Shown one piece after another: positions 2,921 through 54,969 of a DNA stretch of 64,000 nt (its first letter is position 1; each line of letters opens with the position of its first letter). Below the pieces are notes generated by a model. The model was not told the DNA's origin, searched no databases, and saw only the letters and a program-made list of their open reading frames with translations. The stretch lies in NCBI GenBank assembly GCA_030272155.1, contig CP126192.1, positions 5,614,501-5,678,500 on the forward strand, read 5' to 3'. The position numbers and the translations under genes were made by a program. This stretch comes from Tetradesmus obliquus. Lineage: Eukaryota > Chlorophyta > Chlorophyceae > Sphaeropleales > Scenedesmaceae.

Positions 2921-5309
2921 ATGACAGCAGATAACTACGATCATCTCTTCAAGGTGTGGCTGCACGCAGCATTGCGAAGACGCACCACCTGCAGCAGCTG
3001 CTGCCCCACACCAACGTCCCTACATGTTCCAAGTGTCCTGAATGCATGCAAGTTTTTGGAGCATCACTCGACATTGTCTCAACGTTGCCACTCGGTTATG
3101 CATGCACACACAGGTGCTGCTAGTAGGGGATTCTGCAGTTGGCAAAAGCTGTTTGCTGATGCGCTTCACAGCAGACCGTTTTGACGAGGTCACCACATCA
3201 ACCATAGGTATGTCAGCATGTGCTGGAGACTAGAACGGAGCAGCGGAAACAATTCCTGTGTGTTATGGCCGTATGGTGTATGCTGGCATATGTTCAACAT
3301 GTTTCTGCAGTTCACTCTGCAGTTTACTCCTTGCACAGGCACCTGAGCTGCAAAGGCGGTGCATTTGCAGCATCTTCACCTGATGTTTGAAATCATGTTC
3401 ATCAGCTTTACCCGGGCTTGTGTCTCCCCTGTCTGCAATACGACTGCAGGTGTCGATTTCAGAGTGAAGTACCTGGATGTGGAAGGAAAACGCATCAAAC
3501 TGGCAGTTTGGTGAGCAACAGCAATTGGGCGTATTCTCAGCAACAGCAGCAGCTAAGAAGGCTCAGGACATGCGCAGCAGCTGGCACAACAGCGATGCAG
3601 CAGTAGCTGCAAGGGCGCAGGCGAACGGTGGATTCTGCAAGTGGTTGATGTTGACTTTGCTGTATTTCTTGCAGGGATACAGCAGGCCAGGAGCGGTTCA
3701 GGACACTAACAAGCAGCTATTACAGGTATGCTGCACAGCAACCTCGCAGAAAGTCCTGTTGACTATTGTGAGAACACACTGTGGTGCATGCGGCACATTT
3801 TGGCTTGCGGTCGCGCGCTTTCACAGCGCACTATCTGCCGGTGTATTTACTTCTCCTGTGCTGTTGCTGTGGATGCACCTACGTGTGCTGCTCTTGCCAG
3901 CAGCTGCCGCCTCACAACAAGTTGTCCGTGACAAGCTGCAACGTTGCTGCTGTACTGCGCTTTGCTGTTGTGTGCTGGCCACCTTTGCAGAGGAGCGCAA
4001 GGCATCATATTTGGTGAGCACAGCAGAGATTGAAGCAGCAACAGCAGCTGCAACAGTTGCAGCACAACCAGCAGCAGCAGCAGCCAAGATATCTGCGGCA
4101 GCATGTGACATTCGTGGCGTCAAAAAGACGAGCGGATGTCAAGCAACAGTTCAGTGTCTCGTCAATGCGCATGCTCACCTGCACACAACGCAGCCTTGCG
4201 TCACGCTGCTTGGTGCATGCGTGCCGACCTCAAGCAGAGGAGCCAACCCAGCAGTGTGAGGAGCTTGTCCTACCTGCTGCTGCTTCATGCTGCTGCTGCT
4301 GCTGCTGCTGCAGTGTATGATGTGACGCGTGGCGAGACCTTCAGCGACCTGGAGAGCATCTGGATGAAGGAGGTGGACATCTACAGCAATGTGGAGGCGG
4401 CAGTAAAGATGGTGGTGGCCAACAAAGTGGACCTGGTGCGGCACGGCTGCAGCTGCGGCGCTGCCGGTGTCCTACTCAGCATTTGCATGTCATGCGCAGA
4501 ACATGCTCTGCACAAGGAGATGCAGCTGTTAAAAGAGTGGCAGTTGCTGTGCTAGGCAACGGCTGTTGACGTATGTAGGCGCTGTGCAGTGCTGGTCAGA
4601 GCTGCCATCACACAGTGAGCAGCTTTACTTGCACTACTTTGCAGCTGCAACTAGCCGGCCGACAGCAGCGTAAGCAAGATATACGGAATGTCAGGGCAGC
4701 AGCTCGATGTGTGAGATGCAGCAGTTGCCACTGCAAGCGCGCTTTGACGCTGCATGTGCCGCTGCTGCTGCCTGCAGGAGTCTGAGCGGCAAGTCAGCAA
4801 GCAGCAAGGCATCGACTTTGCGCGCAACATGGGCTGCCTGTGAGTCTTGCGCGCAGTGCTGGCACCAGCAGTGTTGAGCACCATCTTTTGCTGCTCATAA
4901 AGTGTTGAGCACCATCTTTTGCAATCAGTGCAAAAAGCGTCCTGAACTGCCAGCCGCTGCAGTTGTTGCAGGGTGTTGGGTGCCAGCAAGCTTCTCATTC
5001 ACGCATCAACAAGCACTGCATTGTGCACCTCGCCATACTCAACTGCTCTTCTGCACTGCACTGCGCACGTTACACAACCAAAAGCATCTTCCACGCTCTC
5101 CAAGCACCAACTGGCCAACTTTCACTGCCGCGCATGCTCGCAGGTATGTTGAGACCAGCGCCAAGACCAACGTGGCTGTGCAGCAGGCCTTTGAGGAGCT
5201 GGTGCTGAAGATCCTGGAGACGCCAGCGCTGGTCAACACGGCGCTGGGCACAGGCGGCGTCAAGCTCACCCAGCAGGCAGCAGCACAGGCCAGCACCTGC
5301 TCATGCTAG
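2921..5309 (+). CDS. RABC: Rab GTPase of the RabC/Rab18 subfamily
   Basis: Eight exons: 2921-2953, 3114-3207, 3450-3510, 3675-3725, 3991-4013, 4314-4435, 4778-4839 and 5144-5309. All phases close to give 203 residues, the usual Rab length. Visible motifs are the P-loop [18 protein letters not shown], the Rab18-type [18 protein letters not shown] and ETSAK. The protein ends CSC, a CxC geranylgeranylation signal. [19 protein letters not shown] and [12 protein letters not shown] match plant RabC1/Rab18, which acts in ER, lipid-droplet and membrane traffic. The start ATG gives [11 protein letters not shown], the normal N-terminus just before the first beta strand. Introns are short (about 110-340 bp). 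The terminal coding segment is copied downstream (see repeat). Confidence 0.95.
4871..4921. repeat. 31-bp tandem direct repeat in RABC intron 7
   Basis: GTGTTGAGCACCATCTTTTG occurs at 4871-4890 and again at 4902-4921, spacing 31 bp, wholly inside the last RABC intron. Confidence 0.8.
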
Positions 5310-5437
5310 TGAGCAGCAGCTGCAGCTAGCAGCGCAATTGGCATCGTGTGTTGCTGCTGCTCGTGCTAGCAGGCAGCAGCTGCAGCCGGCAGCCAACCAG
5401 CAGGCAGCAGCACAGGCCAGCAGCTGCTCATGCTAGC
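5270..5437 (+). repeat. Copy of the RABC stop-codon end in its 3' flank
   Basis: The last ~40 bp of the coding region, including the CSC codons and TAG (5270-5309), recur at 5396-5437 with one or two changes, 126 bp downstream. The copy still ends in ...TGCTCATGCTAG. Part of the window-wide exon-edge duplication pattern. Confidence 0.85.
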
Positions 5438-7354
5438 AGCGCTATGCACTGCTAGAAACTTCAAGCTAGCGTGCTGCAGCTGCGCACTAACTGGGCGCGG
5501 TCCTAGCAGCAGGGTGCAGCGGGAGTGTTGGCACACAAGTATGCCATGGTGCTGGCCGCTGATTCGGCACACCTTTGCTGTGGTGGTCGCTGGTTGTGTC
5601 GATGCACATTGTATCGCGGCAGCACCAGCTGTTGCTGTTGCCGTCTCTCTCTTGGTCTGTATTGCAGCAGATGTCAGGCTACTGTGTTGCTAAGCAACTC
5701 AGCAGCGCCATGTGCTGTGCAGCTTTCTCATATTTTCTGTTGCTTCTTTGTGCTTCTGCTGTGTGCGTGTGCTGTTGTGAGCATTTGGGATGCGTGCGCT
5801 TTTAGTGTTTTGTTGCTGTACATTATTGTTGTTTGCGGCTAAAGTGTTTGAGCTGAGCTGGCAGTGGCTGCCATGCCATGTGCGGCTCTGACTAGCAGTG
5901 GGGTGCAGGTGGCTACCGACACAGGCATGCTTACACGTGCACGATATTGAAGGTCGTGTGCCTTGCCTGCCAAATTCAGTGCATTGCGGGGCACATGATG
6001 CAGCAGTGCAAGGTGGTTATTCACCGGCAGTGTGTTGTTGCATGCCGCCTTTGGGTTTGACAGGCAGCGTTGTATTGGTGTAGTAGCACGTGCCACCTGG
6101 CACAGTTGGTGACTCTGTGACATCTGCACACCTGTGGTTGCATATTGTTCTTGGTCGTGCGGTACATGTCGCTCGAAGCTCTGCGCTTCAAGTGCACAGG
6201 TGATGACTTGCAGATAGACTGGATCCGCCACTAAAAGATACATGTGCGCTTCCGTATGTTACAAGCGTGCCCGGAGTTTCACAAATTGTAACAGGCTAGA
6301 ACACCAACTGAGGCATGCGTGGAGGACTTCGAACTCCACAAAATTTCATATGAGTGGCGTGCTGCATGCAAAGCAGCGCCTATATCCAGTCACACATGGT
6401 CCGCGCCATGCGCTGGAAAAGATGGGGTGCATCTCTTCAGCACTGAAGAGCCACGTGTTTGGCCGTTAGAGGGCCAATGAATAACTTGGTGAGGAGCACG
6501 CATCTGTGAAACTGCTTGCTATGCCACTGTCTGCTGGCTGGCCCAGCTCCGGGAGCTTCTTGCTTGTCAGGCATTGGCCTCCTGCTGTGCGCCTGACGAC
6601 AGCCGCCACCACATACTATGTGGGCTAGTAGCTACAGCTCACCCCCGCCAGCAAAGTAATGCCAAGCCTTTGAAGCTTGCATGCTGCAAGACAGACAGGG
6701 TTGTAGGGTATGGGGATGGCACCAGCTGGGGCAGGCAGCAGCAAGCATGGAGACTGCCAGTGCTGCCGGCAAGACGCCCTGCAGATGAGTATACACCAGC
6801 AAAGCGCAGCAGCAGTGGCATTTCATAATCAGCAGCAGACATGGAGCTGTTGTGCAACTGCGTCCACTGATGCTATGGCACATCCCTCCAAGCAGTTGAA
6901 GTCAGACAGAGCCTGCTGCAGGACGCACGCGACAGCTGCAGCTCCCAGCAAAACAGCACCACATGGCAGCAGACTGGGTCGCATGGCACGCTGCTTGGGA
7001 TGTCATCTTGCAAAGATCGAATGGTGCAACACACCTTCTCGTACCCAAGGCGGGCTCACCTGTTGCTGAAGCTTTACTGTGGGCAAGGCTCAGCAGGAGC
7101 CATTTTCGCTGCTGCTTGCTACACTGCTGAGCAGTGGCCCCCGATGGCATGCGTGTGACCACAGGAGGGTCTGCTGACAGCACACCAGGTGAGTGGGATG
7201 GCTGTGCAATGCTATCGCTAGCTGTGACTGCTGTGGCAACGAGGCCACCAGGCTTACTGCCACAGCTGACGATTACTGATGGCCGGGACCGAAGAAACTC
7301 AAGCTTTGCTTCTGCCTGTTGATGGATGAAAGGAGGGCCGCCACTGCGATTGCA
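5310..7354. other. Convergent region between RABC and the cold-shock gene
   Basis: Two kilobases with no gene I can support. It holds the 3' UTRs of RABC (+) and the cold-shock gene (-). A TGTAA at about 6285 could be an algal polyadenylation signal for RABC, but it is nearly 1 kb away. One or two short open frames with splice-like ends (around 7066-7185) could not be joined to anything. Confidence 0.5.
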
Positions 7355-9672: not shown

Positions 9673-12192
9673 ATAGAGAGGCAGGCAGGCAGGCAGGCAG
9701 GCAGGTAGGATGTTGTTCAGTGGCACAAGATGAGCGTTGCAAGTGCAACAAGCTGACAACCGTTTAGGAGGTTGCCATCTTTTGTCTTGTGTGGCTCCCA
9801 TGACTGCTGTGCAAGTAACCCCCCCTAGTTGCAGCCAACAGCACCTTTGACACTGGCTGATCTGAGCACTGCTTAGCAGCATGCATTCACCACCTAGTGC
9901 TGCACACATGCCCAGACTAATCACAGCCAGCAGTATGTGTTCCTGAAGCCCAGTGGGCTCAGCGCTGCCTCGCAGCAGCCACTCACCGCCTGGTGCTGCG
10001 CACATGTCTAGCACCCGGCTGCCTGGTGCAGGGTCCAGCACCTGCGCAGCAACTATGCACGGCAGCGCTTGCAGCATCACCTGACCCCGCAGCACGCCTG
10101 CAGGCACAGCACAGCAGACAGCACCAGCAGGTAGCCTAGTCAGCAGTTGTAAAGGGAGAGTTTGCATTTTACAACATGTAAGCAGGGCTGAAGCCGGCTC
10201 TGGCACTGAAAGGCTGTATCCTACTCGGATGCAACGTTGTGGCTTGCTGCGTCGCGCTGTTGGTGTGTACCGCAGAACTTCAACGCTGGCTGCGGTATGT
10301 GAAAGCTGTACCATGCTCTTGTTGATGTTGATTGCAAGTAATCAGGTCCAGATGAGCCAGCTGAACATTGTATGCAGAGCTGCTGCCATGCATGCAGCAT
10401 TGCTTCTCTTGTCGCGGCTCACCATTGCAGGCAGGGATGTCATACACACGCGACAACATCTCAACCGCCAGGCCCTGCTGCTGCCTGAACAGCCCCCGCC
10501 GGCCCTCAGTGACCCTGCCCACACCAACAGCCAGCTGCAGCCTCCCTGGCAGCTGTGCCTGCAGCTGCTGAGTGAGGGTGGCTCCTCTGTTGACGCCTGC
10601 CCAGCCCCTGCAGTGTACCCCAGCAGTTGACAAGCAATTAGAAAGGAACTGCAACAGTGCAAGGCAACAGCTGGTGTGGCTGCGAGCCAACATAAAGCCA
10701 ACAAGGCCTGCCACAGCTTATCAACATTCTTATCACTGCACCATCACCCATCCATCCCTCCCCGCTCACCCCGGCCGCTGTTCCAGCGCCACCGTGACTG
10801 CCACGGCATCGCCAGCAGCCAGGCACTGCTGTGGATGTACATAACAACAGGTACAGCATGCTGGTTAGCTTGCACAGCAAGCTACGACGACTGTCCCTAA
10901 TCACCTGCAGACTCATGGTCGTGACGTAAACACCATGACCAGCACCTCCGCAACAAGGCCTGCTACAGCGTCACAACATACCTATCTCTAAACCATCACC
11001 CATACAACCCTCGCCACTCACCCCGGCCGCCGCTCCAGCGCCACCGTGACTGCCACGGCATCGCCAGCAGCCAGGCCCCTGCTGGCTGCCAGCAGCCCTG
11101 GTGAGAACACGTGCGCGCCCTTCAGCACAGCCTCGCCAGCAAGACGGTTGATGACCACCTCACGGCCCCCTGAGGTGCAGCAGAGTAGGAGTCAATGTGT
11201 CAGTGAAGGCGCCGCCGCCGCCGCCGCAGCAGCAGCTGCAGCAGCAGCAGCAGCAGCAGCAGCACAGCCCCGCCAGCCAGTCAATTAATGACCACCTCGC
11301 GGCCCCCTGGGGTGCGGCAGGGTGCGGTGGAGTGTGGTGGATTGTGGCAGCCACCGCAGCAGTAGCTGCAGCTACAGCAGCAGCGCGGCTACTGCTTGGT
11401 GATGGATTCCTGGCATGCGTCTGACGCTGCAACAGGGTGCAGCAAGCCCAAGCAGGGCAAAAGCCCCACATGGTGCAGAGTGGATTCAAACTTTCACATG
11501 CACATTACTTGCTGCAGAGGCTTGCCATACATCATAAGCCAAAATCCGCAGCGTGTGCTGCGGGGGCTTGTGTGCACGCACCGCATTGCTCATAGTCTGG
11601 CTGCAGCTCCCCCCTGCCTGGCACGATGACAGCGCTGCTGACAACCGGGTGCACATACGGCTGTACACCCGGGAAAAGCTGCTGCAGCTGCTGCACAACA
11701 TCCTGCAGCAGCGGAGCAGGAGCAGGAAACACAGCGTTGAGCTCAGGAGACACGCATAGCTATGGGAGAGTCATGGCTAGACATCACCTGACCATGCATG
11801 CAAGCAAACACTGCCATGAGCACTACAAGGCAGCAGTGCTGCATTAACTGTGATGACATAGTAACGGTCATTCCAGTATTCGACTGTGTCATGTGCTTAT
11901 CAGCTGCTGAAGCTTTGCCACAGGGCATGCCATTAGCTATACCTGTGGCGCTGAGTTGAGCGTGTTCACACGCAGGCAGGTCTTCAGCGAAGGCCTACAG
12001 AGAGACTCGGAGATCCTCTGCAACTTCTTAGCTCCAAAAGCATGTCCAAAGTACTCCTTGACCTGCACACCATGCACACCAGCAACGCGTAAACTTTTTG
12101 CCTGCTGACAGCAGGAGCAGCCTGCCGTCGCTGCCACATGCAAGCTGTTGCTGCACCTTTGGATCCCAGACAATGCTAGGGTTGAAGTTCAT
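8410..12192 (-). CDS. NSUN6: NSUN6-type RNA cytosine-C5 methyltransferase with PUA domain
   Basis: Eight exons in order: 12157-12192, 11943-12062, 11582-11702, 11022-11169, 10423-10607, 9987-10097, 8949-9590 and 8410-8651. Every phase closes, giving 534 residues. The N-terminus (NPSIVWDPK, then VKEYFGHAFG) matches plant NSUN6 homologues. A PUA domain lies around residues 93-150 (EAVLKGAHVFSPGL, GDAVAVTVALE). The Rossmann domain has motif I DMCAAPGGKT, motif IV LLDAPCSALGLRPRL with its Cys, and motif VI YCTCTINPGENE with the catalytic Cys. It ends in GFFIAKFKK, as the family does. NSUN6 makes m5C in tRNA 3' ends and some mRNAs using SAM. Exon 7 carries a Gln run and long Ser runs (~residues 290-370) between motifs, a low-complexity insertion at a place variable in plants. 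An in-frame ATG six codons upstream (12210) is an alternative start. Confidence 0.93.
9604..9710. repeat. Tetranucleotide microsatellite (GTAG/GCAG)n
   Basis: About 107 bp of imperfect (GGTA)n passing into (GGCA)n, interrupted by AGATAGAGAG, inside NSUN6 intron 6 (9591-9986). Confidence 0.9.
10700..11320 (-). repeat. Duplicated segments around NSUN6 exon 4
   Basis: About 125 bp including the 3' end and donor of exon 4 (parent 10952-11077) recurs at 10700-10823, 252 bp away, inside intron 4. The copy keeps the codons for AGDAVAVTVALE and a GTGAGC donor. The other edge of the same exon (acceptor side, about 11146-11180) recurs imperfectly at 11283-11320 in intron 3. Both exon edges are therefore duplicated. 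Confidence 0.85.
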
Positions 12193-16495: not shown

Positions 16496-19400
16496 GTATC
16501 ACCTTCTCACCTGGCCTATGCTGAAGGGTTGCGCCTTCTTGCTGGACTGCAGCTCCAGCACATATTTCAGGTCGTGCTCCACGTACTCCATGACCATGTA
16601 CACCGCGTCACGGCTGCCGATGACCACCTGCGGTGTGTGCATGGTAAGGCACAGGCAAATCTGTCAACCGACTATGATACTGTGGCCATGTACACCGCGT
16701 CACGGCTGCCAATGACCACCTGCGACAGGCATGGACAAAAGGGTCAAGAATAACATTAGTCAACGTCAACTACACAGCATCACAGCAGCAAGTGAATTAC
16801 TAAGCCATTGAGCTGAAGCAGCGCTGCAGACTGACTCAGTCCCTACTCTAGCCGCATTCCCGATTTGAGCCGCCGCACTCTTGACGTGCACCCAACACGT
16901 TACCTAACCACAGGCGTGCCTGCGCACCTCTACCACGTTGATAACTTTTGAGCGGCTCAGCAACAGCAGCACGTTCACCACCACCCGACTCCCAAAACCC
17001 CACGCCTTGCCAACTAACACACAAAACCGCAGTGCTCACCTCCGCCACGTTGACAATCTTGGGGTGGCTCAGCGACAGCAGCACATTCGTCATCTCCTAA
17101 CTTGTACTGGTGTCACCAACGCCCAATCCTTGCTGAAAAAAACACACAAACCCAATGCGCACCTCTGCCACGTTGACGATCTTGGGGTGGCTCAGGCTGA
17201 GCAGCACGTTCATCTCGCGCACGCTGGTCTGCGGGAAGCCGTCGGGGCACTGCTCCAGCTTGAGCTTCTTCAGCGCGTAGATGGCCCCGCTGGCCTTGCA
17301 GCGCGCACGGTGCACCACGCCAAACGTGCCCTCTGCACAGCATAAGCGCGATTGTTTGTGAGCAGGCAGGGCTAAAATCAAACCAGGTCTGGTTGCGCCA
17401 GGTCTGGCAGCTTCAAGGAAGCACGATCACTTTCATTTGACAAGTAACAAACATGTTGTATGCTGCTGCTGTTGCCACGCAAGCTGGGATCCCAAGCCGC
17501 TGCTGCTTGCGCTCGCCTTCGCCCCCCCCCTCCCACACACACACGCCTTTACTCCTGTTGAGCCGCTCGTAATCCTCCATGCACCCAGCTCTGTCGCTTC
17601 CTGCCCGTCCACCAGCCCCCCCTCCCCCCCCCCCCCCCCCCAACCTGTTACCCGCCTGCTGCTCCCCCCACACACCTGAGATCCTGTTGAGCCGCTCGTA
17701 CTCCTCCACGCGCCGACTCTCCTCCAGCAGGTTCTTCTGGAAGGCCGCCTCGTCCTCGTCATCAGGGTCGCTGCTGCTGGCCAGCCCGCCACCATTGCCG
17801 GCTGCCTCAGGGTCGCTGGCACCATCACTCAGCGCACCAGCCTCCAGCTCGGCACGCTCACGCCTGCAGCGCAGCAGCAGCAGCAGAAGAAGATAAATAA
17901 GCAGCAGCAGCAACAGCAGCAACAGCAATAAACCACACCATCACTCAGGGCGCCTGCCTCCAGCTCGGCACGCTCACGCCTGCAGCGCAGCAGCAGCAGA
18001 AGAAGAAGATGAATAAGCAGCAGCAGCAACAGCAGCAACAGCAATAAACCACACCATCACTCAGGGCGCCTGCCTCCAGCTCGGCACGCTCACGCCTGCA
18101 GCGCAGCAGCAGCAGCAGCAGCAGCAGCAGCGGCGGCAGATGACGTAGGCTCGCCACTTCCTAACAAAGCATTCAGCAGCTATCCACAGGTCACATGCAG
18201 TTTGGCAGGTGTTGCCTCCCCCTAACCCCACACCAACCACACGGCTACTGCGCGACGCCGATGAAACCAGCAAGCAGCCAGCCAGAAGCCATTTAAAGCA
18301 GCATGCCCACCTGTTGAGTGCCTCCAGCTCCTCATCAACAGCGACTAATCAACAGCCGAATGAAAAAACAGCACACATCACCCCCTCCCTCGCCGCCGCT
18401 ACACACCACCCCCCTACCCCCCCCCCACACACACACGTGCCCACCTGTTGAGTGCCTCCAGCTCCTCATCAATAGCAACCCCAGGAGCCTCCCCCTCCTC
18501 AAGGTCACCCCCAGCACCCCCAGCAGCAGCAGCAGCAGCAGGAGCCTGGCCCTCCTCCTCTTCCTCCTCTTCAAACCACCGGCTCTTGCCAGGCTTCTGC
18601 TGCTGCTGCTGCTCCTCGTCTTCCTCATCAGCCTGCCAGCGGCCAGCAGCCTTCTTCTGCTGCTGCTGCTGCTGCCGGCCACCCTCACTGCTGCGGCTCC
18701 TGCTCCGGCTGCGGCTGCGGCTCCTGCTGCTGCTGTAGCCGCGGCGCCTGCCGCCGCCCTTTTGTACCTTAGGCGAGCCGCCCCGCCCCTCCTCCCCTTC
18801 CTCGCCAGAGCTGCTTGGCGACCTGCCTCTGCTGTGGTGATGGTGCCGCCGCCGCTGCTGCTGCTGCTGCTGTGCGCCTGGCGCCGCCTGGTGCTGCTGC
18901 TGCCTGAACTCTGCTGCCTCTCGTGCCAGCCGCTCCTGCAAGCTCTCCTGCTGAGAGGAAGGCCTGCGGCAGGCCAGCAGGGCAGCAGAATGGCAAATGA
19001 GCAGTGAAGTGATGCAGGAGCGCATCCTTATTACTGTTACGCACTGCAGGAACTCACAAATGGCTAGACGCAGCTGGCGCAGCGGCGTGTGCTGAGCCTT
19101 CCCATCAACGACAACCTTATCCTGCTGCCACACAGTCAGGCAAGCTGCACACTCAACCCTGCCTTACAGGACGGAAACAACATGAACTCACCTGTCTCCA
19201 GCTGCTGCTTCCTCCCGCTGCTGCTGCTGTGAGGGTGAGCGCCACACAATGGGCTCATGTTTTTGCCGCTTCCTGGGCCCACCAGCAGCAGCAGCAGCAG
19301 CGTCATCGGCCTCGCCTGACTCTGGGCCATCGTCCTGCGCTGCTGCTGCCTGCTGCTCCTGTGCGCGGCGCTTTGCTGCCTCCAAGATGGCGTTGCTGAT

Positions 19401-35110: not shown

Positions 35111-36867
35111 CAACTGCCCCAAGTGTGGATACACCAGCAGGGTTCCAAAGCAGACACTCACTGGTATGTGCGCAGGTGCTTGCCCGCCTGCCAGTGCGCC
35201 ACCACTGCCACTGCAGCAGCAAAGGCCATGACGTCACCCAGCAGGGTCACCTCCGTCTCTTTTGCGGACACAGCACCACTGGCCAGCACAGCACAGCCTG
35301 CAGCAGCAGCAGCAGCAGCAGCAGGACAGAGCTCATAAGCATAACCAATGTGCAGAGCTACTGTTAAGGGTTTGTGATGGTGGCAGAAGACAACGCAGAG
35401 TCCTGCCCCATGCTGCCTTTACGAACGGCTGTGCGTCACGCACGTATGGGATGACAGTCACGTGCCGCACTACCACAGTTCCAGCAGCAGCACCACTATC
35501 TTGCTGCTCTTCCGCATGCTGCCGCCTCCCTCCTTTCTGTGCTGCGGTTGGCTGCCTGCTGCCTGCACCCTGGCCAGCACCCTGGCCAGCACCCCACTGC
35601 ACTTTACACTTGGAAGCAGAACAGAGAAGACGAGCTGCCTGTTGCAATTGGCGCGGCTGCCGGCTGCCTCATATACGCACCTGCCACTGCCAGCACTGCG
35701 CCCGCCACCTCTCCCGTTGAGATCGGCTGGCGTGTGGCCAGGCTGTATGCCACCAGGATGATGGGCGTGGTGGACACCAGCAGCAGCGAGTGCGCGAGGC
35801 TGGTGTGCTGCAGGCTCCACACCCAGGTGCCAAAGTGCAGCCCCTGCAGCCACAGTTGCCGAAGAGCAGTTCAGCAGTTCAGCAGCTCAGCATTCAGCAG
35901 GAAAGATCGTGATAATTTATTTGCATTATGCTTGCAGTTATTTGCTGCAGTGAGGGTGTGGTGACGGGGTTGGTGGGTTGTTTGAAGGGGTGAGCAACAG
36001 TGTGCAGCAAGGGTCGAGGCGGCAGCAGCTCGCGTGCAGCAACTCAGTCTTGTGTTTCTGTAATGCTGACAAAGCAGGTAGTCAAAGCATGTGTTGTCTT
36101 GTCTTGCAAACTCACACTTGCAAACTCACACTTGCAAACTCACACAAAGATTCCAAAGGACGGCTGCTCGCGCGCACTGCCGCCTGCTGCAGCTGCAGAT
36201 TCTCGCCTGCTCGTTAAAACATGTCTAAGAGCGCAACGAGAGCCAAGGCAGCACCCCTGCTCCTGCTGCTGCTGCTGCTCACCAGTGCCACCCCGCTGAA
36301 CAGGCTGTAGCGCCAGTCCCTGAACACGCGCGCCTTGTCAGCGCCAGGCATGCCGCGCCACTGCAGTGCTGCTGCCAGCACCAAGATGCAGCTGGTCAGC
36401 TGCAGCCGCCATGCGGCCAGTGTCATGGGCGGAACCTCTGCAATGTATTTGAACGCCACGCCAGCAGATGCGACAGAGCACACCTGGGAGCATGCAGAGA
36501 GGGAGAGAAACAGAGCAGCAGGCAGCTGGGTGACGGGGGAGCAGCAACATGAGAAGCTAGGGCTGTGTGCAGTGATGATCATTCACTGGTGCATTGTGAA
36601 GGTGAGGGGTGAAGCATGGCTGCTGCAGAAACGCAACTAAAGACAGGCATATGTGCTGCTATACAATGGTGTTAGTAACATTTGCTGCATGCTGGTTCAG
36701 CAACACAACAACAACACAGAAACACGGCAGCAGCAACAGCAGCAGCAGCAACAGCAACAGCAGCGGCAGCACCAGCAATCAAGCCAGCGACGCAACCATA
36801 TACAACCATCAAAACTTACTGCAGCTGCTAGCAGTGCGTAACACCACCAAGGCGCACGCCTCTCCAT
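33748..36867 (-). CDS. EamA/DMT-superfamily membrane transporter
   Basis: Five exons: 36820-36867, 36283-36483, 35681-35843, 35162-35297 and 33748-34732. All phases close to 510 residues. The first exon encodes only MERRAPWWCYALLAAA before a GTAAGT donor. The membrane part (~325 residues) has about ten hydrophobic segments in the two-fold EamA pattern: FKYIAEVPPMTLAAWRL after TM1, then HTSLAHSLLLVSTTPI and GEVAGAVLAVAG. In the second half come VTLLGDVMAFAAAVAVV and LRYVSPLIVSLAVQFEPVVG. DMT proteins export or exchange small metabolites; the substrate cannot be told. The last ~185 residues are hydrophilic, with DNGGA repeats and Ser runs, and look like a cytosolic tail. Located on the same strand as, and downstream of, the ABCF gene. 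Confidence 0.9.
33972..34076 (-). repeat. 18-bp coding repeat (DNGGAF/S units) in the transporter tail
   Basis: ATCAAATGCACCACCATT-type units, five to six copies, encoding FDNGGA repeats in the cytosolic tail of the DMT protein. Confidence 0.85.
34711..34860 (-). repeat. Copy of the DMT exon 5 acceptor edge
   Basis: The exon start CGCTGTAGACAAAAACAGGC plus CTGC (34711-34736) recurs imperfectly at 34837-34860 (CGCTGTGGGCAAATACAGGC plus CTGC), about 124 bp upstream in transcript sense. The acceptor CAG is kept. Confidence 0.7.
36104..36147. repeat. 14-bp tandem repeat GCAAACTCACACTT
   Basis: Three tandem copies of a 14-bp unit in DMT intron 2. Confidence 0.9.
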
Positions 36868-38809: not shown

Positions 38810-41800
38810 TCAGTGGTTCACGCCCATCTTCTTGGCAAGGTGTGCCTTGTACTCGCGGATCGTGCCCTTCCACGGCTTTACCGTCTGCAGCAGCAGCAGC
38901 AAAAGTAGGTTTGTTTCCACACATCGGCGCGCAACGTCTGCAGTCAGGCACCAACTAAGCACCAATCAAGCACCACTAGCACCCCTTGTACCAACAAGGT
39001 AGGGTTCTGTTCAAACTTCCAAAGCAGAAACATACATGTTGTGTAAATGCCTCATAGTAGCACGCAGGCAGCTACCTCAAGGTGCCTCAAGGTGCACACG
39101 TCGTGCAGAGGCACAGCCTCACCTGCTTCTCGCAGACCCAGATGTCCTTGGCCACCTGGTCGATGAGCCTGAAGTCGTGGCTCACCAGCACCATGCCGCC
39201 CTGCGGTGCGACAGAGGCACCAGCAGAGGCAGACAGCGGAGCAGCGTGTTGACAATCAGCATCACGAGCCAACGCCAGTGGACACAGGCACAAATGCATG
39301 GGCAAACATGCAGCAAGTCATTAGGGAGAGCGCTGACCCTGACCAAAACACGACAAAGGACAAGCATGCTTGAACCAAATGAGCAGCAGTGCATAGCACA
39401 AGAACACAAGAACATGACAATGCCAACCAGGGCTCACCTTGAAGCCCTTGATGGCCTCTGCCAGGCTGTCAATGGCCTCAATGTCCAAATGGTTGGTGGG
39501 CTCGTCCAGCAGCATCATGTTGTGGTTCTGCGCAGCACGGCCAGCAACACAGCAGAAACAGCAATTAAGTACATAGGTGTCAGGCTGCAGGTGCGGTGGG
39601 CTGTAACACCGAAGCACATGCAAGGCACAAGCAGCGAGGTGCCACTGGCGTGCAAGCAACGAGCTTGAAGTCATCATGTACGTCAGGGGTGATCTTCAAG
39701 CTGCAAATCAAATCAGCACCAATTTTTTATGCTCAGCAGCCGTGTGCCTCACCTTCATGCACATCATGGCAAAGATGAGCCGGCTTTTCTGCCCTTCTGA
39801 GAGCATGCCGATCTTGCTGGTCTGCAGCCGGCCAGTGATGCCGTACCTGCGCGCAGCAGCGGCAACAGATGCGTCAGCGGCAACAGATGCGTCGAGTGAG
39901 CAGTGCTGCAGGCAACGGCTAGCTCCATCACAGCCCAACAAGGACGCTGTGTGCTTGCACGCCCTGCACGCACAAGAACCCCCTTTTCCTAAGAGGACAC
40001 ACGCTAGCTTCAACCAACCTCGTGCTCGTCTGCATGATTTACACCCATTGTAATGCAGGATAGCAGCATGTTACCCGCATGCACGCAACAGCGCAGCCGC
40101 AACACATGGCAGCAGCGTAGCGCCATGCCTGTAGAGACATCCTGTTTGCCCAGGAAGGCCCTGGACTCATCTCCAACTCCTGTTCACTGCAGCGCAGCCG
40201 CATGCCATTCGCAAAAGGCAAAACAACGCAGTAGCAGCAGCAGCGCCGCACCTGCCCAGGAAGGCCCTCCACTCGTCTGTCTCGCGCTTGAAGGTGGGCG
40301 TGTTGGGGTAGGTGAACGCGAAGAACTCGAGCGGGGTCATGCTGTTGTCCAGCGCGTCCGTGGAGTGCTGGTGGTAGCGCCCGATGCTCAGGTGCCTGCA
40401 GCGCGGCACAGCGTAAGGGTGGGAAGGGTGTGTTGCAGCAGCGGCAGCGTGTGAGCAACAGGCCCAGAGATAGGAAGCACGGCTGGCTGCAACTGACTGC
40501 AGGGAACCGAGCAGCAGCAGTTCACTGATTCTGTGTTGGACGCCTCTAGAGAACGACTGCGCATGTCACGTGATAAAGAATCAAGGCAGCGGGAAAGGCG
40601 TGTGCAACATCATGATCTTCATACCACACAGGGGTTCATTCCAGTTCAAGTTCTTTTGCATGTGTTGCGACAAGCCTGCCGCTCACATGTGCCGCGTGAC
40701 TGTGCCCTTTGTGGGCTGCAGGTCGCCCAACATCAGCTTCAGCAGCGTGCTCTTGCCTGCGGAAAAAGCAGCACATGCAAACAAGACAGTGAGACTGCAC
40801 ATCCAAACACACTGCCAGCAACAGCATCAGCGTCAGCAGCATGCTCTTGCCTGCAGCACATTGCAGCACACAGCGACAATGGCAGTGACATGGCAGGTCA
40901 GCAACACACCGCCAGCAACAGTGACAGCAGCGGTTTAAAAAACACACCCCGTCATCTCCGTCAAAGGGCACCGCCCTCATCTAACCCTCCAAACTGCAAC
41001 CATGCTGTACACATGCAGCATCGCTGCACCTGTCTGTTGGGCCCCACCAGCGCGATGCGCGAGTCGCAGTCGACGCCAAACTTTATGCTTGACTGCATGC
41101 TTCCATATCCCTCAGTATCAACAGCACATAGATCCAACATGCTTGATTGCATTCATCCATATCACCGCACCTGCTCCATTGGGCCCCACCAGCGCGATGC
41201 GGGAGTCGCAGTCGATGCCAAACTCCAGGTCCTTGTACAGCATGCCCTCCGCATTGCCGCTGTAGCTGAAGGACACGTTCTGGAAGGGCAGCACTGGCGG
41301 CGGCAGCTTGTCGCAGTCTGCGGGTGCAGCAGAGCATTACGGCAGCAATAGAAGGGCGGCGCAGGCAAGCGTACAGCAAGGTCAGCAATGACCCTTTACA
41401 GCATGCAAGCAGCACAGCACAGCAGAGCACTCTATGCACACACACTGCTGCAGCAGGTTCTTGCCTGGTAGGTCTGGTGCCGAGCAGTGGCTGCGCATAC
41501 ACTAGCTGTATCGCAGTGGTGATCTACGCGGCACACTCGCATGGCAGCAATTTGCGAGATGATTGCCCCAAGCAGATGATGACTGCCCCAGGCAGATTAC
41601 TTGTACGCTACATATCACACGTGCGCATGTCTAATACAAAGAATATGCAACATGTCCACAGCGCACCTGGGAACTGGAACTCGAATGTGCGCTCCCTCTG
41701 CACCGGCTGCGTGAGGCCCGCCTCCACCATCTTGTCCAGGATCTTCTGCTTGGACTTGGCCTGCTTCACCAGGTTGGCGTAGGTACCTGCAGTTTGACCA

Positions 41801-44800
41801 AGTTTGACCACGTTTGACCAGGTGTGAAGAGCATGTGAGCGAGCATGACCAGCATCAGAGATAGCAGCAGCACCACAATCGTGTTGCATGCATCCATTCT
41901 GCCGCCGGCAAGGGAGAAGATGGCGCAACACAGAGGCAGCGGTGCCGTCATTTTTGGATGCCCACAGGACTCTGACCGCAACACACTTTACGCAGCAGCT
42001 GGCAATGAACCCTGCCATGCCCCTGCTGGCCTAGTCATCTGCACCCCGCAAGAATAGCTCGCAGTGCATTGCCCCTGTGCCTGCAGCTGTGCTCACCGCA
42101 CGAGGCGGAACATGCAAGCAGGCAGTCACACGCGTGCATGACCAATCTGTCAGCCACGATTACAGCTGCTGCAGACGCGTATGTGGGCTCACCGCAGGAG
42201 GCGATGAACTCCTTGATGTGCTTGATGTCCTCCTGCTCCTTCTGGTACTTCTTCATCTGCACCACCTCGTTCTCAGCCACGGTCTTCATGAAGGTGTCGT
42301 AGTTTCCTGCAAGGGCGCACACACAGGATTTGTGTCGCGGTGCAAAATGTATTGATGTGTTGCAGAAATGGAAGAAAGCAAGTGCAAAGAACATGAAGGA
42401 GGTTAGACGCAGTGTGCAGTGTATGTTCTAATAAGATAACCTCCTTTGTGTTCTTCACACATGCGTTTTTTTTGGAAAAGAAAAGGAAGCTTGTGTGAAG
42501 AACACAGAGGAGGTTTTTGTTGACCCAGAACAGGTACAGCAGCTACCAGGAGCACGTGTATGCTGCAATGAGCCAGCGGCGAAGCATTACCCACCCAGCA
42601 GCTGCAGTAGTGCCACACGCAGCACATAGCTGTGCTCGAAAGTGCGCAGCCTTACATTAAATGTTTATGTTTATGTGTAATGTGTAATAATGTGTAATGA
42701 TGTGTAATGTGTAATAATGTGTAATAATAAAAAGACTTTAAACATAGCTGCTTCCCACTCACCGGTGTAGTACGTCAGCTTGCGCTGCGTCAGCCAGATG
42801 ATGTGTGTGCAGACGCCGTTCAGGAAGTCCTGACTGCAAGGGCAAGCAGGATGCAGCAGCAGCAGAAGAAGAAAGGCAGAGGCAGTGTGTGTGTGCGAGC
42901 ACTTGAAGGACTTGTTTCAAAAAAACCAGCTGCTGGCTGCACCTACGGTTGACAAGCATTGCACACTTGCTGTTGTTGCACTTTTCATATGATCATCACA
43001 CTGAATGCAACACAGTACACCCACCATGGATTGTAATGTTTGGTCAAACCTGGTCGACTCTGGTCAAACCCCAGTCAACCCCCGTCAAACCCACCTGTGG
43101 CTGACCAGCACCAGGCACTTGTTGTACGTCTTCAGGTACTCCTCCAGCCAAACACACGCCTCCAGGTCCAAGTGGTTGGTGGGCTCGTCCAGCAGCAGCA
43201 GCGTGGGGGCGGCAAACAGCGCACGTGCCAGCGCCACACGCATGCGCCAGCCACCTGCAGCACCAGCACAACACATCATCAAGCATCAGTCGCATTGCAT
43301 GTTGCCCTTCGCCACTACGGCCTCTTGCACTGTACACCCACACCACACATTACAATCGTTCAGTTTCTGTAGTGTTCTGCTACGTTTCAATTCACAAACG
43401 CACCGCTCATGTCCTTGGTCTTGCGCTCCATCATCACGCGGGAGAAGCCCAGGCCGTGCAGCAGCTCCGCCGCCCTGCTCTCAAAGGTGTTGGGGTCCAG
43501 CTCATCAAGCCTGTCGTAGATGGCCTCCAGGCGCTCATCACTGGGGCCGTGCTCGCTCATGATGGCCTCCTCCTGCAAACAGTTGTTACTTTGCTGTTAG
43601 TAACAGTTGTACGCTGTTATTAAATCAACACCAGGGAGACCCCAGCCTGTCATAGATGGCCTCCAGGCGCTCATCACTGGAGCCGTGCTCGCTCATGATG
43701 GCCTCCTCCTGCACATATGTTGGTGAGGGAGTATGTTATTGACACAATTGACTCAATGTTGTAATGTGTTCAAGGCCAGTGGTGGGGCTGCTGCCTTGCC
43801 TGCTGCTTTGGCTACTGCTGCTTTCTCCCACTCCTGCTGCTGCTGCCGCTGCCCCGCACCTGTGCGTGCAGGCGCTCCATCTCCTCCCTGATGTGGTCAA
43901 TGACCGCCTCCAGCGCGGTGCGGTCGGAGGGCTCCGCCTCCTGGTGCAGGTGGTAGATGTCCAGGTGGTCCGGGATGGGCACCTCGCGGCTGGCCAGGGC
44001 CTGCAAGACGATACACATAAAGCAGCACGCAAATTGCTTGTCAACACAGCAACAGTACGGAGGCAGCAGCAGACGATCGCTTGTCTGAGCAGCGACATAA
44101 GGAAGGCAGCAACACAACGTGCTGAGCAGACCCCTGGCCTGAGGTGTGCCCTTCGCGGATAGCCATGATCCAGCTGCTGCTCCTCCGTGCCATGCCGCAG
44201 CTCAGGCAATTACTGGCCAGCTGCTTTTGCAGCTGCTGCTGGGCCCTGTGCTGAGTTGCAGGTCACCCGGGCTGTGCCAAGCGCCATGTTTGCCCTGTCC
44301 CCAAACCCCCCACTCAGCGCCATGAGCCGCACCCACAAACTGCCGCACAGTGCCTACTGCTGCACCTGCATGCAGCCGTTCTTGCTGCACCGTGGGCACT
44401 ACCAAACGTTCCCAGTAAGCCCCGAACCCAGACACCCAGCTTGCGCCGCAGCCGTGCGCAGTGCCTACTACAGCACCTGCGGGAGGCTGGACTTGCCGCT
44501 GCCGTAAGTTCCTTGCCAATCTTCATGCAGCCATAACTGCACCAGCGCCTGCTGCAGCACTTGCAGGGAGATGGAACTGCCGCAGCTGTTCTGCCCTCAC
44601 CCCAACCCTAAGCACCCAGCCATGCATTGGGCCGTGCTGTGCAGTGATCTCCTGCTGCCGGACCTGCAAGAAGCTGACTTGCCACATCTGCCTTGGCAAC
44701 AGCTGCTGGCAGCTAGCTGCTTTGGAACTGCATCTACACTGTACACCAAGCCTGCGCCTGCCGCACATACGCACCTGCAGGAAGCTGGACTTGCCGCATC

Positions 44801-49610: not shown

Positions 49611-51210
49611 AGCAGCTGACCAAACGAACTGTTTTCAAACTAAAGGCTTTACATGTCCATTGTGTCGACGAGCCAGAACACATCTATCAATGAGCTGCAT
49701 GTCTCCTTGCTGTATGTGGGCATATGCTGATCAGCCTTACTTCACAGTTGACAGCAAATGTAATTGCACCAAACTGATCACATAAACGCATCAAAGCCAC
49801 AGCAGGGAGCGCTCTAGTGACCAAGCCCTGGTCACATGCAGCAGCAGTCATATGACGCCTTGTCAGCTGACACACCATGACAGGCTGACAGGCGGGCGTG
49901 ATTGTTCACATGTGCCTGCACATGCCTCTATTCCAGATTGATCACTCCTCAAATTAAATGACCATGGTCCCCGCCGTCAATGTAGTCAGTACAGCAGAAC
50001 AGACCAAGCCTCGACCTTGCAGTTTGCCAACTTGTCAGTCTGACACTAAGTGCCACAATAAAAGGCTTCCAACATAGGGAAGCATGCAGCATGCAGGCTA
50101 TCCGGTGCAAGCCAAAAGCAATATTGCGTTTGGCACTCACTGACCATGGGAACAACAGCATATTGCTGGTTGGTTAAGGCATCTGCACTAGCGTCTGCAG
50201 GCACAAGCTTGCTTTGAGGCAGCGCCTGCCTGCTTCCCTGTGCCTGCCTTGTAGCTACCATGGTCCACCTGCATCATAAAGCTATTCCACTCCTAATTTA
50301 GCATGAACGCAATGCGTCCAAGCAGCACATGCCATTGTTGCAGATGTTGGCCACACAGGACATGGCAGGCAGCCAGCAACAGACTCAACATGCTACTAAG
50401 CACTGCTGCTGCAGCGCCAAGCACACACAAAGTGCAGTAAATGCAAGAGACGCCCACTCACCACACCTACACACCTACTCACTAAGCACAACTACAGTCG
50501 TGTCTCTTCCGAGCCCTCTAAAAACAGCAAACAGCACAGATCAATGGGTCCGAGTTTGGTATGCGCCTGCAGCAGGTGATGCTCACTGCCTGGCACTGCC
50601 AGCAATAGGACGCAGCAGACACCACAGATGCTACGCCACAGCCGTGCGTAACTGTTGCTGCAGCTGAAGCCGCTCTTGCCCCTCCTGCTGCTGCCGCCAC
50701 TGCCGCTGCTGCTGCTCAGTACTTGACGAAGCCGCTCTTTTCAGACGTAGACAGCAGGAAGGGCCGCACCTGCCAGCCGCCAGCAGACAGCTCCCGCACG
50801 AACCTGTCAACAGTTACTGCTGCTGCTGCCGCTGCTGCTGCTGCTGCTTCTGCTGCTCAGTACTTGACGAAGCCGCTCTCTTCCGATGTAGACAGCAGGA
50901 AGGGCCGCACCTACTAGCCGCCAGCAGACAGCTCCCGCACGAACCTGTCAAAGGTTGCTGCTGCTGCTGCTGCTTCTGCTTCTGCTGCTCAGTACTTGAC
51001 GAAGCCGCTCTTTTCCGACGTAGACAGCAGGAAGGGCCGCACCTGCCAGCCGCCATGGCGGCCAGCAGTCAGCTACTGCATGAACCTGCCAGCGTTCGCT
51101 TTTGCTGCTGCTGCTGCTGTTGCCCTTGCTGCTGCTGCTGCTGCTGTTGCTGCTGCTGCCCCTACTGCTGCTGTTGCTGCTGCTGCTGCCCCTACTGCTG
51201 CTGCTGCTGC
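49611..51210. other. Spacer between orphan membrane protein and RUS gene
   Basis: 1.6 kb between two minus-strand genes. The first kilobase shows nothing recognisable. The part from 50716 holds three copies of the RUS terminal exon end (listed separately). Confidence 0.5.
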
Positions 51211-51305
51211 TCAGTACTTGACGAAGCCGCTCTTCTCCGACGTCGACAGCAGGAAGGGCCGCACCTGCCAGCCGCCAGCAGACAGCTCCCGCATGAACCT
51301 GTCGA
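50716..51305 (-). repeat. Four copies of the RUS terminal coding end
   Basis: The RUS coding end with its TGA starts at 51211. Copies start at 50989, 50857 and 50716 (spacing 222, 132 and 141 bp). Each reproduces about 75-95 bp encoding MRELSAGGWQVRPFLLSTSE and KSGFVKY, including the stop codon, and each is bordered by CTG runs. The copy at 50857 changes one codon to a stop (CCTACTAG on the plus strand). The copies lie in the 3' flank and are not needed for the gene. Confidence 0.93.
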
Positions 51306-52436
51306 CATTTGCTTCAGCACGCGAGCGAGCCTGCCTGCGCAGCCTGCTGCTGCACACCACTGCCTCGCTGTCAACATGCAGTGGCTGCACCTGCAGGTGC
51401 GGCTGCCGGCTGTGTTTACTGCTGCTGCTGCTCCTGCTGGCGTGTGGCTCGTCCTGCTGCTGCTGCTGCTCTAGCTGCTGCTCTAGCTGCTGCTGCTCCT
51501 GGAACTCCTGCTGCAGCTGCCGCCGCATGTAGGCTGCTTCTAGTACTGCTGTGAGGATGTCGCGGGGCTTGGCTCCAGTCTGCAAGCAGACTGCGATGTG
51601 CTGCACTGACTTGTACTGGCCCAAGCAGCGCTCCTGCAGGCAGTACAAACAGGCACAACAACAGGCATTGTGTCACGGGTGCGTGTTGCGACCGTGTGGC
51701 AGGATCTTCTTCTCCAAAGGAAGGGCTTTACACAGGGGCTTTACACACGCACAGCACACACAAGCAGCAACAGAACAATGCTGACAGCAGCACGGATGTG
51801 TGTGTAGCGGACCATCCATGCTGCGTGCTACCGCAGACAACAAACTGCAAGCGACACACCGCATCACAGGAGATGCTCCCGCTCTGTACCGCGCCGCGCA
51901 CATGCACATCCGACCAGGGTACCAAGCATGCTCACACACCCATCACGTCCCCAGCAACACACCAGACCACTACACATCAGATCCTTCAAGCAGGACCTCC
52001 TGCGCTGCACCACGCCTGTGACAACACCACGCCTGACATAAAACCTCATCTTTTGTTACACCACGCACATTGTGAAACCACGCATTTTGTAACACCAAGC
52101 ATGTTTCAACACCGGCCACCTGCACATTCACCAGGTAACTGCTGCCCATATAAGCCCCCAGCAGCCCCCTGCCTCATGTTACCCACCGTCATCATACAAT
52201 CAAACCTACATAACACCACCAAGCGCTCACCTGCACATTCCACCAGGGTATGCTCTGTGCCGGTTGCAGCGCCATGAGGTATTTGCTGCCCTTGTAAGCC
52301 CCCAGCAGCCCCTGCAGGTGCCCCGGGCTGCACACAGCTCCCTCCAGCGGAGTGATGCGCATGGGCAGCAGGTTGTCTGCGATGTTGGGGGTGCCGAGCA
52401 GCGACTCGTTGCTGCTGATGTCCCGGAAGCTGGGCA

Positions 52437-52479
<43 letters not shown>

Positions 52480-54969
52480 GTGAGAGCGGACTTGCTGCTA
52501 ATGTCCCTGAAGCTGGCACCTCGCAGCAGCAGCAGCAGCGGCGGCGGCAGCACCAAGAGGTATTAGCTAAAGAAGCTGGTTAGAACCACATGGTGCTCAA
52601 TCGAGGCAAAAAGCCACCCCTACGAACAGAAGACCACAGCAGTCACAGCCCACAGCCCGCACATATAGCACACGGCACAACTTATGGTTGCATACAACCC
52701 CTGACTTGGCGCATAAACCCCTTCACACCCCGTGTGGATTGCTGCACAGCCTCATCTCAAACCAGCAGAAGCCTAATAAAGCACAGCTTACCCTGCCTTC
52801 CCTCAGCCAGTACTCCGCCACCATCTCCGCACGCTCCCGGTTCAAGCTTCGCAGCTGCACCGCCTTGAGCTCGTGGTAAATGCAGAACAGGTCCGCCACG
52901 CCGCACAGCGGGAAGGCCACCAGCGGCAGCAGCATGCGGCGGCTCTCCTGGTGCCGCAGCAGGTAGTTGGCGGTAGCTGACACGGCCAGGGCTAGTGTGT
53001 CCATGACCATGTGCTGCGCCTGCAGCGGAGCAGCGGGGCAGCACTGCAGATGTCAGCGGGACCGATGCCTACGGCATGGTGGTGTTATGAAACATAACCT
53101 ATGATGCTACGCAGCAGGTAGTTGGCGGTTGCTGAAACGGCCAGGGCTAGTGTGTCCATGACCATGTGCTGCGCCTGCAGCGGAGCAGTAGGCGAGCACA
53201 GCAGAATGTCAGCGGATCGGGCCCACAAAGCATGGTGGCCTTGGTGGTTGTGATTGTACGCAGCAGGTACTTGGCGGTTGCTGACACGGCCACGGCTAGT
53301 GTGTCCATCACCATGTGCTGCGCCTGGCAAGGCAAATGTTGCAACAGGGCAGCGAGACAGCAGGCCAGCAAGCAGCACAGCAGAGTGTCGGCGGGACGGG
53401 TACCTTGGTGCTCATCAACACACGAGTAGAGCAGCGTCACCAGATACCTGTAGTCTGTTGACTGTTGACTGTGCAGAGCGCAGTGATGCGGCTCGCAGAC
53501 AGGTACTTGAGCTGAGCTAGCGCTATGAAGCCACAACCATAAACCACACAACCAGCATGACACTCCATCAGAGGCATGCCAAGACGTTGACTGCCCAGAG
53601 GTGGATCGAAGAAATTTTCCTAATAGTGCCAGACACACACCCACCCTGGCAGTACTGCTACGCACCTGCGTCTTTGAGGCCAGGTCGGCCATGTTGCCGC
53701 TGGCGCACAGTGCCTGCTGGAAGGCCGGCTGCGTGCTGACAAAGGTGGTCAGGCCCACCGCACGGCCCACGTTGGACACTGCTGTCAGCAGCAGGAAGTG
53801 GCTGGGGAAGCGCGGCGTGAGGAACTCGCAGGACACGCACGCCGTGTACAGCAGCGACGTCGTGAAGCGGAAGCGCTGCACAGGAGTTGAGGAGTGAGCA
53901 GGCAAACACAACAGTGTTCAGTGGTGTGTGGTGGCGGCAGTGTACAGCAGCTGACGTCATGAAGCGGAAGCGCTGCACAGGGAGTTGAGGACTGAGAAGG
54001 CATCACAACACTATTCATGGTGTGTGGTGGCGGCAGTGTACAGCAGCGATGTGGTGAACCGTATGCACTGCATGCGAAGTTGAGGAGTGAGAAGAAAACG
54101 CAACAGTCACGCAGTGTATCGAAGCTGTCGCCAAATTGCATGACCACTCAGCTGCAGCTATAGCAAACATGGAGCATCACAAGCGGCCACAGCTGCCCTG
54201 CCACTCGCCCCCACCACCCTTCACACCAACCCACCACCCTCTCCCTCAGTCCAGACTAAACCCACCTTCAGGTCAGAGTCAAAGCTGTCGCCGAATTGTG
54301 TGGCCACGCCCATGCGCACGAGCCTGTTCATGCCGTCCTTCAGCATCCAGTTGATGGCGGCAGATGCAGCCAGCGCCTTGCGCGCGCCCACGCCCACCGC
54401 CATCAGCAGCGACTGCGTGGCAAAGTTCTGCAGCACAGCGCTGAAGAAGCGCTGCAGGGGCGGCAGCAAAGACAACAGGGAAGTAGTGTTGAATTAAATG
54501 TGCAGTCGTGTTAAAAGGGATGCGCAGTTGTCTCTTCAAACCTGGCAAAGTTCTGCAGCACAGCGCTGAAGAAGCGCTGCAGGGGCGGCAGCAGAGGCGG
54601 CAGCGAGGGCACAAACAGGTGACAATATGAGTATCTGGGGTGATTTTAAGGAACCATGTCGCAACAGCTGAAGAAGAGCTGCAGGGGTAGGACAGGGCCG
54701 ACTGACATGTCTGTCGGCACTTTCGTTCGTCGCCCCTTTGCGTTGTACAACGCAGTTCCAGCCTGCCGATCCAGGGCAGGGCAGGGTCAATGCCAAGCAA
54801 ACGCGGTGCACGAAATTGACAAGCATGCTGCTTGAACACCCCGCTTGCACGCACCTGGCCGCAGCGCCAGCGCAGCCACTCCCAGTAGTCCTCTGTGACG
54901 TCCTCCTTGCGCGGGATAAAGCTGCTGCGCACACGCTCCTGCATGCGCGCGATGCTGTCGTGCAGCCGG

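Follow-up and report, generated by a model that had tools for sequence, protein, structure and literature searches.

Short direct duplications of exon ends recur in introns and 3' flanks of a Tetradesmus obliquus genome region

New introns and isoforms have been proposed to originate from duplications across splice sites, which, in the portions of the literature covered here, are documented as scattered cases. The available passages of one report describe a single tandem duplication in potato RdRp that crossed an intron-exon boundary and made a new intron (PMC4974935). For human repair-mediated proximal duplications, the excerpts give 4 partial exon/intron donors among 824 tabulated cases, with a median length of 147 bp, an average distance of 1.2 kb (possibly a method artefact, according to its authors) and some copies in opposite orientation (PMC2671141), and extracts of a further study describe small tandem duplications arising at staggered breaks with 3' overhangs (PMC8355091). 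Here we analyze a 64-kb window of the Tetradesmus obliquus genome (C2:5614501-5678500; G+C content 56.7%; genome 104.66 Mb in 17 contigs), in which a first-pass annotation had reported short copies of exon ends beside their parents in at least six genes. We found that the edge-copy pattern is real and extends beyond the window: 73 of 445 internal exon edges in the window and 25 other stretches (39/216 donor, 34/229 acceptor) carry a copy within the 500 bases beside them.

The comparison set comprises 20 stretches of 10 kb, two of which (L019 and L020) adjoin the window, plus five more held-out stretches. Exon edges are predicted ones, taken from a two-strand exon/intron hidden Markov model that was self-trained on repeat-masked sequence using fixed splice matrices; its splice sites are CAG/GTGAG-like at donors and CTGCAG/G-like at acceptors (slash, exon edge). 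Held-out loci were scored with the model as trained on the initial set. After the first self-comparison had been seen, five loci were set aside from model training, namely L017, which is satellite-rich, and L003, L004, L008 and L018, which are without any local pair. The same five were left out of the orientation, coverage, family, shift-test, flank, divergence, codon, planted-copy, distance and random-stretch counts; this omission made the proportion of copy-bearing edges higher and adds no family to the circular-shift test. In the 73/445 count all stretches are restored. Exons scoring <10 and low-complexity edges were skipped (27 low-complexity edges in the 73/445 count). The first and held-out sets are pooled in the 445- and 455-edge counts, the overall codon counts, the polarised changes and the young pairs, and the pairwise codon-position counts use one pair per parent region.

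Of the 20 stretches sampled, most contain local direct pairs, and L003, L004, L008 and L018 contain none. At spacings of 50-400 bp, 181 pairs are direct and 1 is inverted, the numbers peaking at 75-150 bp, and the same count in the held-out loci gives 54 direct and 0 inverted. When all edge kinds in the window and control loci are considered, 81 of 455 have a copy within the neighbouring 500 bases, and random 500-base stretches taken from elsewhere, with high-confidence exons masked, give no match to any of the 455. Of 102 families, 81 touch an exon (78 of them including the predicted exon end), 9 are intergenic, 7 are intron-only and 5 lie inside exons. High-confidence edges are touched by 67 of the 102 families, against 30.9 +- 4.2 expected under circular shifts (maximum 44 in 1000). 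The window alone gives 16/26 against 6.7 expected (shift maximum 14), and the held-out loci give 12/22 against 5.8 +- 1.8 (maximum 11). An equal density of duplications in intron interiors and intergenic sequence, which the first-pass annotation had named as speaking against an edge effect, was clearly not found.

Pair coverage is 0.197 close to exon edges (within 50 nt), about 0.16 in introns, 0.072 in exon interiors and 0.030 in intergenic DNA, and the donor profile drops 30-50 nt into the intron and climbs again at 100-140 nt, where the copies sit. Planted copies were found about equally at exon edges (0.91-0.92), in introns (0.89-0.93) and in intergenic DNA (0.94-0.95), which rules out a detection bias through low-complexity filters. 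The impression that mostly minus-strand genes are affected holds in the window (18/103 minus-strand and 1/27 plus-strand edges) but not elsewhere (28/144 plus, 34/181 minus). These near-equal shares exclude a strand bias as a rule, and the bias in the window reflects its gene content.

In the window, 55 donor, 57 acceptor, 11 stop and 7 start edges were tested. Copies lie in the adjacent 500 bases of 19 of these 130 (9 donor, 9 acceptor, 1 stop). The first-pass observation of copies at both donor and acceptor edges is confirmed. Two of the 19 edges, 17040 and 50803, are ends of predicted exons that are probably copies themselves. Self-comparison of the window gives many direct short-spacing repeats, such as 43508-43577/43644-43713 (97%) and 54418-54471/54543-54596 (98%). 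Five of the six genes originally named (RAB, NSUN-like, CDK11, ABCF and RUS) have such copies. The sixth, a putative DMT gene, has a single match with a score of 31 at 35575-35600 (shuffle 95th percentile 20, cut-off 34), and this case, being below the cut-off, is weak. RAB and DMT are provisional gene names; Pfam domains in the window proteins are methyltransferase, kinase, ABC and UVB_sens. The copies are as follows.

5398..5436, plus strand: copy of the C-terminal/stop-codon end of the putative RAB GTPase; parent 5271-5309, 127 bp away, local alignment score 74
10699..10831, minus strand: NSUN-like donor-edge copy; parent 10951-11084, edge 11022, spacing 252, 87%, intron part included, self-BLAST
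11260..11384, minus strand: NSUN-like acceptor-edge copy; parent 11123-11248, edge 11169, spacing 137, 75%
16683..16724, minus strand: CDK11 acceptor-edge copy; parent 16591-16632, edge 16627, spacing 92, 95%
16921..16977, minus strand: CDK11 donor-edge copy; parent edge 17163, 235 bp away, 79%
17033..17096, minus strand: second copy of CDK11 donor edge 17163; called an exon (17040-17096) by the gene model
17540..17585, minus strand: CDK11 donor-edge copy; parent 17669-17714, edge 17676, spacing 129, 83%, GT lost
17936..18124, minus strand: copies of CDK11 acceptor edge 17863; full-unit tandem array of 116-bp units, 96%
18304..18345, minus strand: CDK11 donor-edge copy; parent 18438-18479, edge 18445, spacing 134, 95%
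40147..40172, minus strand: short ABCF donor-edge copy; edge 40252, 106 bp away
40822..40921, minus strand: ABCF acceptor-edge copy; parent 40728-40824, edge 40756, spacing 94, 76%
41020..41082, minus strand: ABCF donor-edge copy; parent 41161-41224, edge 41171, spacing 141, 89%, CAG/GTGCAG kept
43644..43713, minus strand: ABCF acceptor-edge copy; parent 43508-43577, edge 43572, spacing 136, 97%
44340..44690, minus strand: ABCF donor-edge copies; edge 44775, three decayed copies at 44664-44688, 44562-44596 and 44477-44505
50682..51133, minus strand: arrayed RUS stop-codon-end copies; parent end 51211, ~141-bp units, CTG-rich filler
52492..52552, minus strand: RUS acceptor-edge copy; parent 52409-52470, edge 52437, spacing 83, 89%
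53110..53326, minus strand: two copies of RUS acceptor edge 53019, ~155-bp units
53937..54107, minus strand: two copies of RUS acceptor edge 53875, 96-bp units
54543..54596, minus strand: RUS acceptor-edge copy; parent 54418-54471, edge 54451, spacing 125, 98%

As had been claimed, stop-codon ends are copied too, in RAB (5398-5436) and in the RUS array from 51211. The RAB copy, stop codon included, differs from its parent at one of 39 bases, and the gene model called a donor there. CDK11 has copies at edges 16627, 17040, 17163, 17676, 17863 and 18445: those of 17863 lie at 17936-17979 and 18052-18095, the similarity of the 18445 copy ends at +7 (GTGGGCA), and the 16627 copy has a flank p of 0.15 and a spacer without local source. 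ABCF has copies at 40252, 41171, 43572 and 44775, with a further BLAST pair at 40756; the 43572 pair encloses a 66-bp spacer without local source, and a possible fourth copy of 44775 was noted by eye near 44366-44390. In RUS the edges with copies are 51211 (stop), 52437, 53019, 53875 and 54451. The far copy of 53019 is 94% identical in its edge part and lower in the spacer, and the 54451 copy includes 20 nt of intron, with a third short match at 54667-54687.

Spliced models of ABCF and CDK11 were aligned with known proteins, after one predicted segment in each had been removed by hand as a probable copy. The ABCF model is collinear with yeast ARB1 (E 1e-202) and the CDK11 model with human CDK11B (E 6e-97) across the edges discussed. 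Parent edges 40756 and 41171 lie within the ARB1 match and parent edge 16627 within the CDK11B match, which is collinear once the predicted exon 17040-17096 is left out. Because the models without the copies align collinearly, the ABCF and CDK11 proteins need none of them.

The window and the sampled stretches also hold other features. The predicted NSUN-like intron contains, at 10138-10250, a ~90-bp dispersed element with at least 40 similar places (86-96% identical), including three copies 152 bp apart on C15 among the matches listed; it has no Rfam match at the gathering threshold and is possibly a short mobile element. A predicted gene carries a coding minisatellite at 25434-26604, whose ~102-bp units give 34-residue repeats. 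The segment 26677-26915 is 77% similar to C15:2034741-2034978 (L026), possibly part of a paralogous gene. The search for recent paralogues in which copy and spacer could be compared gave only exon-level ABCF matches, one partial C15 match and dispersed repeats. A full-length U2 spliceosomal RNA gene lies at 62584-62775 on the minus strand (158 bits, Rfam RF00004). The whole window is CpG-depleted (observed/expected 0.44-0.64) and rich in CTG/CAG runs, its genes and composition are in keeping with a green alga, and satellite-like tandem arrays occur in L017 and L005 1-1135 (274-bp and 191-bp periods).

A copy typically comprises a few dozen coding bases from the end or start of the exon together with the splice signal. 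Donor copies lie downstream of their edge in 31/33 cases and acceptor copies upstream in 27/32, while stop ends have a copy in 7/29 and start ends in 0/22 in one listing (6/31 and 2/23 under another threshold). Copy distances in 65 internal-edge cases have a median of 137 bp, with quartiles at 115 and 222 bp, and 42 of the 65 fall at 75-155 bp. The first-pass annotation had given 75-155 bp as the usual spacing, which fits 14 of 19 window cases in a separate listing; of its two outliers, the 252-bp one is present, but the 222-bp one is absent from that listing (a 222-bp case lies in L014). Identity is ~0.7-0.97 over the last 25 exon bases, remains at ~0.8-0.9 past the edge, to about +6 on the donor side and some 5 nt on the acceptor side, and then falls to ~0.6 and lower (donors, 0.79 at +6 and 0.61 at +7). 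On the acceptor side, the ends of similarity are scattered, from 3 to beyond 23 nt. The splice dinucleotides are kept, as had been noted, with GT in 27/33 donor copies and AG in 29/32 acceptor copies. A separate search found any copy at 69/395 edges, 33 of these 69 having two to five. At L009 1572-1978, for example, ~86-bp units of acceptor plus exon start form an exon plus four copies, and the exon differs from its copies by two synonymous changes (by eye). Introns with copies have a median length of 412 bp (n=31), against 258 bp without (n=94).

Intronic flanks of parent and copy were compared in 59 of the 65 cases, 6 clustered ones being excluded, and are significantly alike in 29; whole junction-spanning units were therefore duplicated there. 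Likewise, among the 22 best-preserved cases (last 31 exon bases at least 94% identical), the flanks are similar in 11 (p<=0.05) and borderline in 2. The claim that the process is local tandem duplication rather than exon-specific copying is only partly supported, given the observations taken up below.

The fate of the copies can be judged from their divergence. In full-unit arrays, mismatch is 0.104 between exon and copy, 0.118 between copies and 0.156 between introns; the exon-copy to intron-intron ratio is near 2:3, the expectation if the exon alone is constrained, and the values lie near the prediction of duplication followed by near-neutral decay. Pairwise differences are biased to the third codon position and number 87:65:183 at the three positions (56 pairs; held-out loci alone, 12:14:28). 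When changes at multi-copy edges are polarised, copy-unique changes number 53:56:85 and exon-unique changes 5:3:29. Indels break the frame in 18/20 cases (~13 expected at random), and copy distances modulo 3 (19/26/20) show no frame preference. Full coding constraint on the copies is rejected on the frame-breaking indels and the polarised changes, and in-frame alternative splice use on the random frame distances. We read the copies as largely, though not wholly, free of coding constraint, that is, noncoding with a third-position excess.

Altogether, we consider it probable that these copies result from recurrent break-repair duplication across coding/noncoding borders, hidden by splicing and followed by amplification and decay. 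The source would be the repair of DNA breaks or paired nicks, at times with unrelated filler between the copies. Duplications inside exons would be purged, whereas one crossing an edge would be tolerated, as the outer splice site or the first stop would still work and the spare copy would be hidden in the intron or 3' flank. Multiple copies at many edges suggest that units were re-amplified into arrays; the hidden copies decay as noncoding DNA, with a mild third-position excess; and the copies may be what lengthens the introns that contain them.

Several observations weigh against this account. Blind duplication should favour intron and intergenic interiors, and the excess is at edges despite equal detection power, for which the account gives no reason. 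Young pairs (at least 90% identity and at least 40 bp) are distributed in the same way: an exon is touched by 31 of them, while 3 lie wholly within introns, 1 within an exon and 1 in intergenic DNA, the sequence surveyed comprising 104 kb of intron, 92 kb of intergenic DNA and 68 kb of exon. Nine of the 22 best-preserved cases have no intronic similarity (p>0.1), although short similarity ends are partly built into this class by a flank test that begins 9 bases outside the edge; edge 54451, one of the nine, shares 20 intron bases. Of 12 spacers tested, 8 resemble nothing within 1.5 kb (p>0.1), the remaining 4 having weak local matches (p 0.01-0.05). Such cases are better described as copies with filler. 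Donor similarity ends at +4 to +10 in 13/33 cases, perhaps partly through the splice consensus. In addition, copy-copy divergence is below intron-intron divergence in 18/23 arrays; the 15 pairs that are at least 93% identical differ by 2:2:20, i.e., 20/24 at position 3; copy-unique changes are not uniform over codon positions (p 0.006); and n/m for the copy branch relative to the exon third-position branch is 0.45 (95% confidence interval 0.29-0.68, with assumed exon rates at positions 1 and 2), lower than neutral decay predicts. The filler copies, the third-position excess and the bunching of donor ends at the 5' splice signal are all left unexplained. These points leave room for a bolder reading, which we regard as possible but doubtful: repair or recombination would be steered to exon ends, so that edges and their splice signal are copied into the intron or kept by exchange at ~16% of edges, enlarging introns and seeding decoy sites.

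One version of such steering is exon-directed copying, in which exon ends are recognised and the edge with its splice signal is pasted into the neighbouring intron with filler, for example through pre-mRNA-templated repair or through breaks whose position depends on co-transcriptional splicing or on exon chromatin. The strong edge preference at equal detection power, the inclusion of the exon end in 78/81 exon-touching families, the fall of donor identity after +6 and the cases without intronic similarity (9/22) or local spacer source (8/12) would all be expected. We nevertheless think it unlikely, given that 29/59 cases carry similar intron and resemble plain tandem units, that stop-codon ends, which splicing does not mark, are copied too, that acceptor-side ends are scattered from 3 to beyond 23 nt, and that the flank test from +9 partly builds the no-similarity class. 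Alternatively, duplications could arise everywhere, and conversion with the constrained exon, or selection, could preserve the edge copies while the intronic part decays. Such maintenance would account for edges at least 94% identical both with clear flank similarity (11/22) and without any (9/22), for the lower copy-copy divergence in 18/23 arrays, and for a pairwise n/m <1 with a mild third-position excess in the copies. It is quite unlikely, however, because young pairs are edge-bound as well, pooled copy-copy mismatch is just a quarter under the intron-intron value (0.118 vs 0.156), changes unique to the copies show much less third-position bias than exon changes, and GT or AG is lost in 9/65 copies, about what an estimated 7% per-site divergence gives.

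If the copies were functional, as alternative splice sites, alternative terminal exons or regulated decoys, one could understand that GT or AG is kept in 56/65, that copies are present at about 16% of edges and that the pairs have a third-position excess. The random frame distances, the frame-breaking indels (18/20), the weak bias of copy-unique changes and the collinearity of copy-free models with ARB1 and CDK11B make this very improbable, and the role in alternative splicing proposed earlier receives no support from copies that decay like noncoding DNA. Intron gain by AGGT-segment duplication, also suggested at first, would suit the many copies that end in AG/GT. In the two introns checked, however, the copies are internal: ABCF introns 43573-43859 (287 nt) and 40757-41170 (414 nt) are longer than the spacings within them (136; 141 and 94). 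Against introner insertion, genome searches with two regions returned no other copies of the pairs: 43400-43870 matched elsewhere only over a repeat-rich stretch outside the copy pair, and 54400-54860 had no match beyond the region itself, which rules out a dispersed element family for these two cases. We therefore hold both routes to be highly improbable. An assembly artefact is scarcely credible, since the copies differ by substitutions and indels, have diverged to varying degrees and are present in most of the stretches sampled.

Copies at about one edge in six with graded decay would make rate, breakpoints, splicing cost and fate measurable, and this genome is a natural test bed for intron enlargement by small duplications and for a possible repair bias toward exon ends. 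The copies also carry a warning for annotation: they mimic exons, and the gene model took one in CDK11.

Introners, like the copies here, are intron-associated and occur in many genes; they copy themselves from gene to gene, whereas the two cases searched here are private to their own locus. For potato RdRp, the available passages likewise describe a direct tandem unit over an intron end and exon start, with splice signals from the parent; it concerns one gene and a new intron, whereas the present copies recur at about one edge in six and lie within introns that already exist or in 3' flanks (PMC4974935). In the passages on the Rogers model of AGGT intron gain, a small exon-sequence duplication with splice-like ends is again involved, but the spacing should equal the new intron, which is not so in the two ABCF introns (PMC4974935, PMC3443670). 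Human proximal duplications, as far as the excerpts describe them, are also short copies near their source that are ascribed to break repair and may carry splice sites; those found here differ in being direct, a median of 137 bp away and edge-bound (PMC2671141). Duplications at staggered breaks are similarly small, direct and derived from break repair, but the passages on them do not mention an exon-edge preference (PMC8355091). For Chlamydomonas genomes, the passages mention long introns and no such copies (PMC8226300). We did not recognise a widespread edge-bound pattern in the open-licence literature, as judged mostly from listings. We call the widespread edge-bound copies a putative new form of the known duplication across splice sites.

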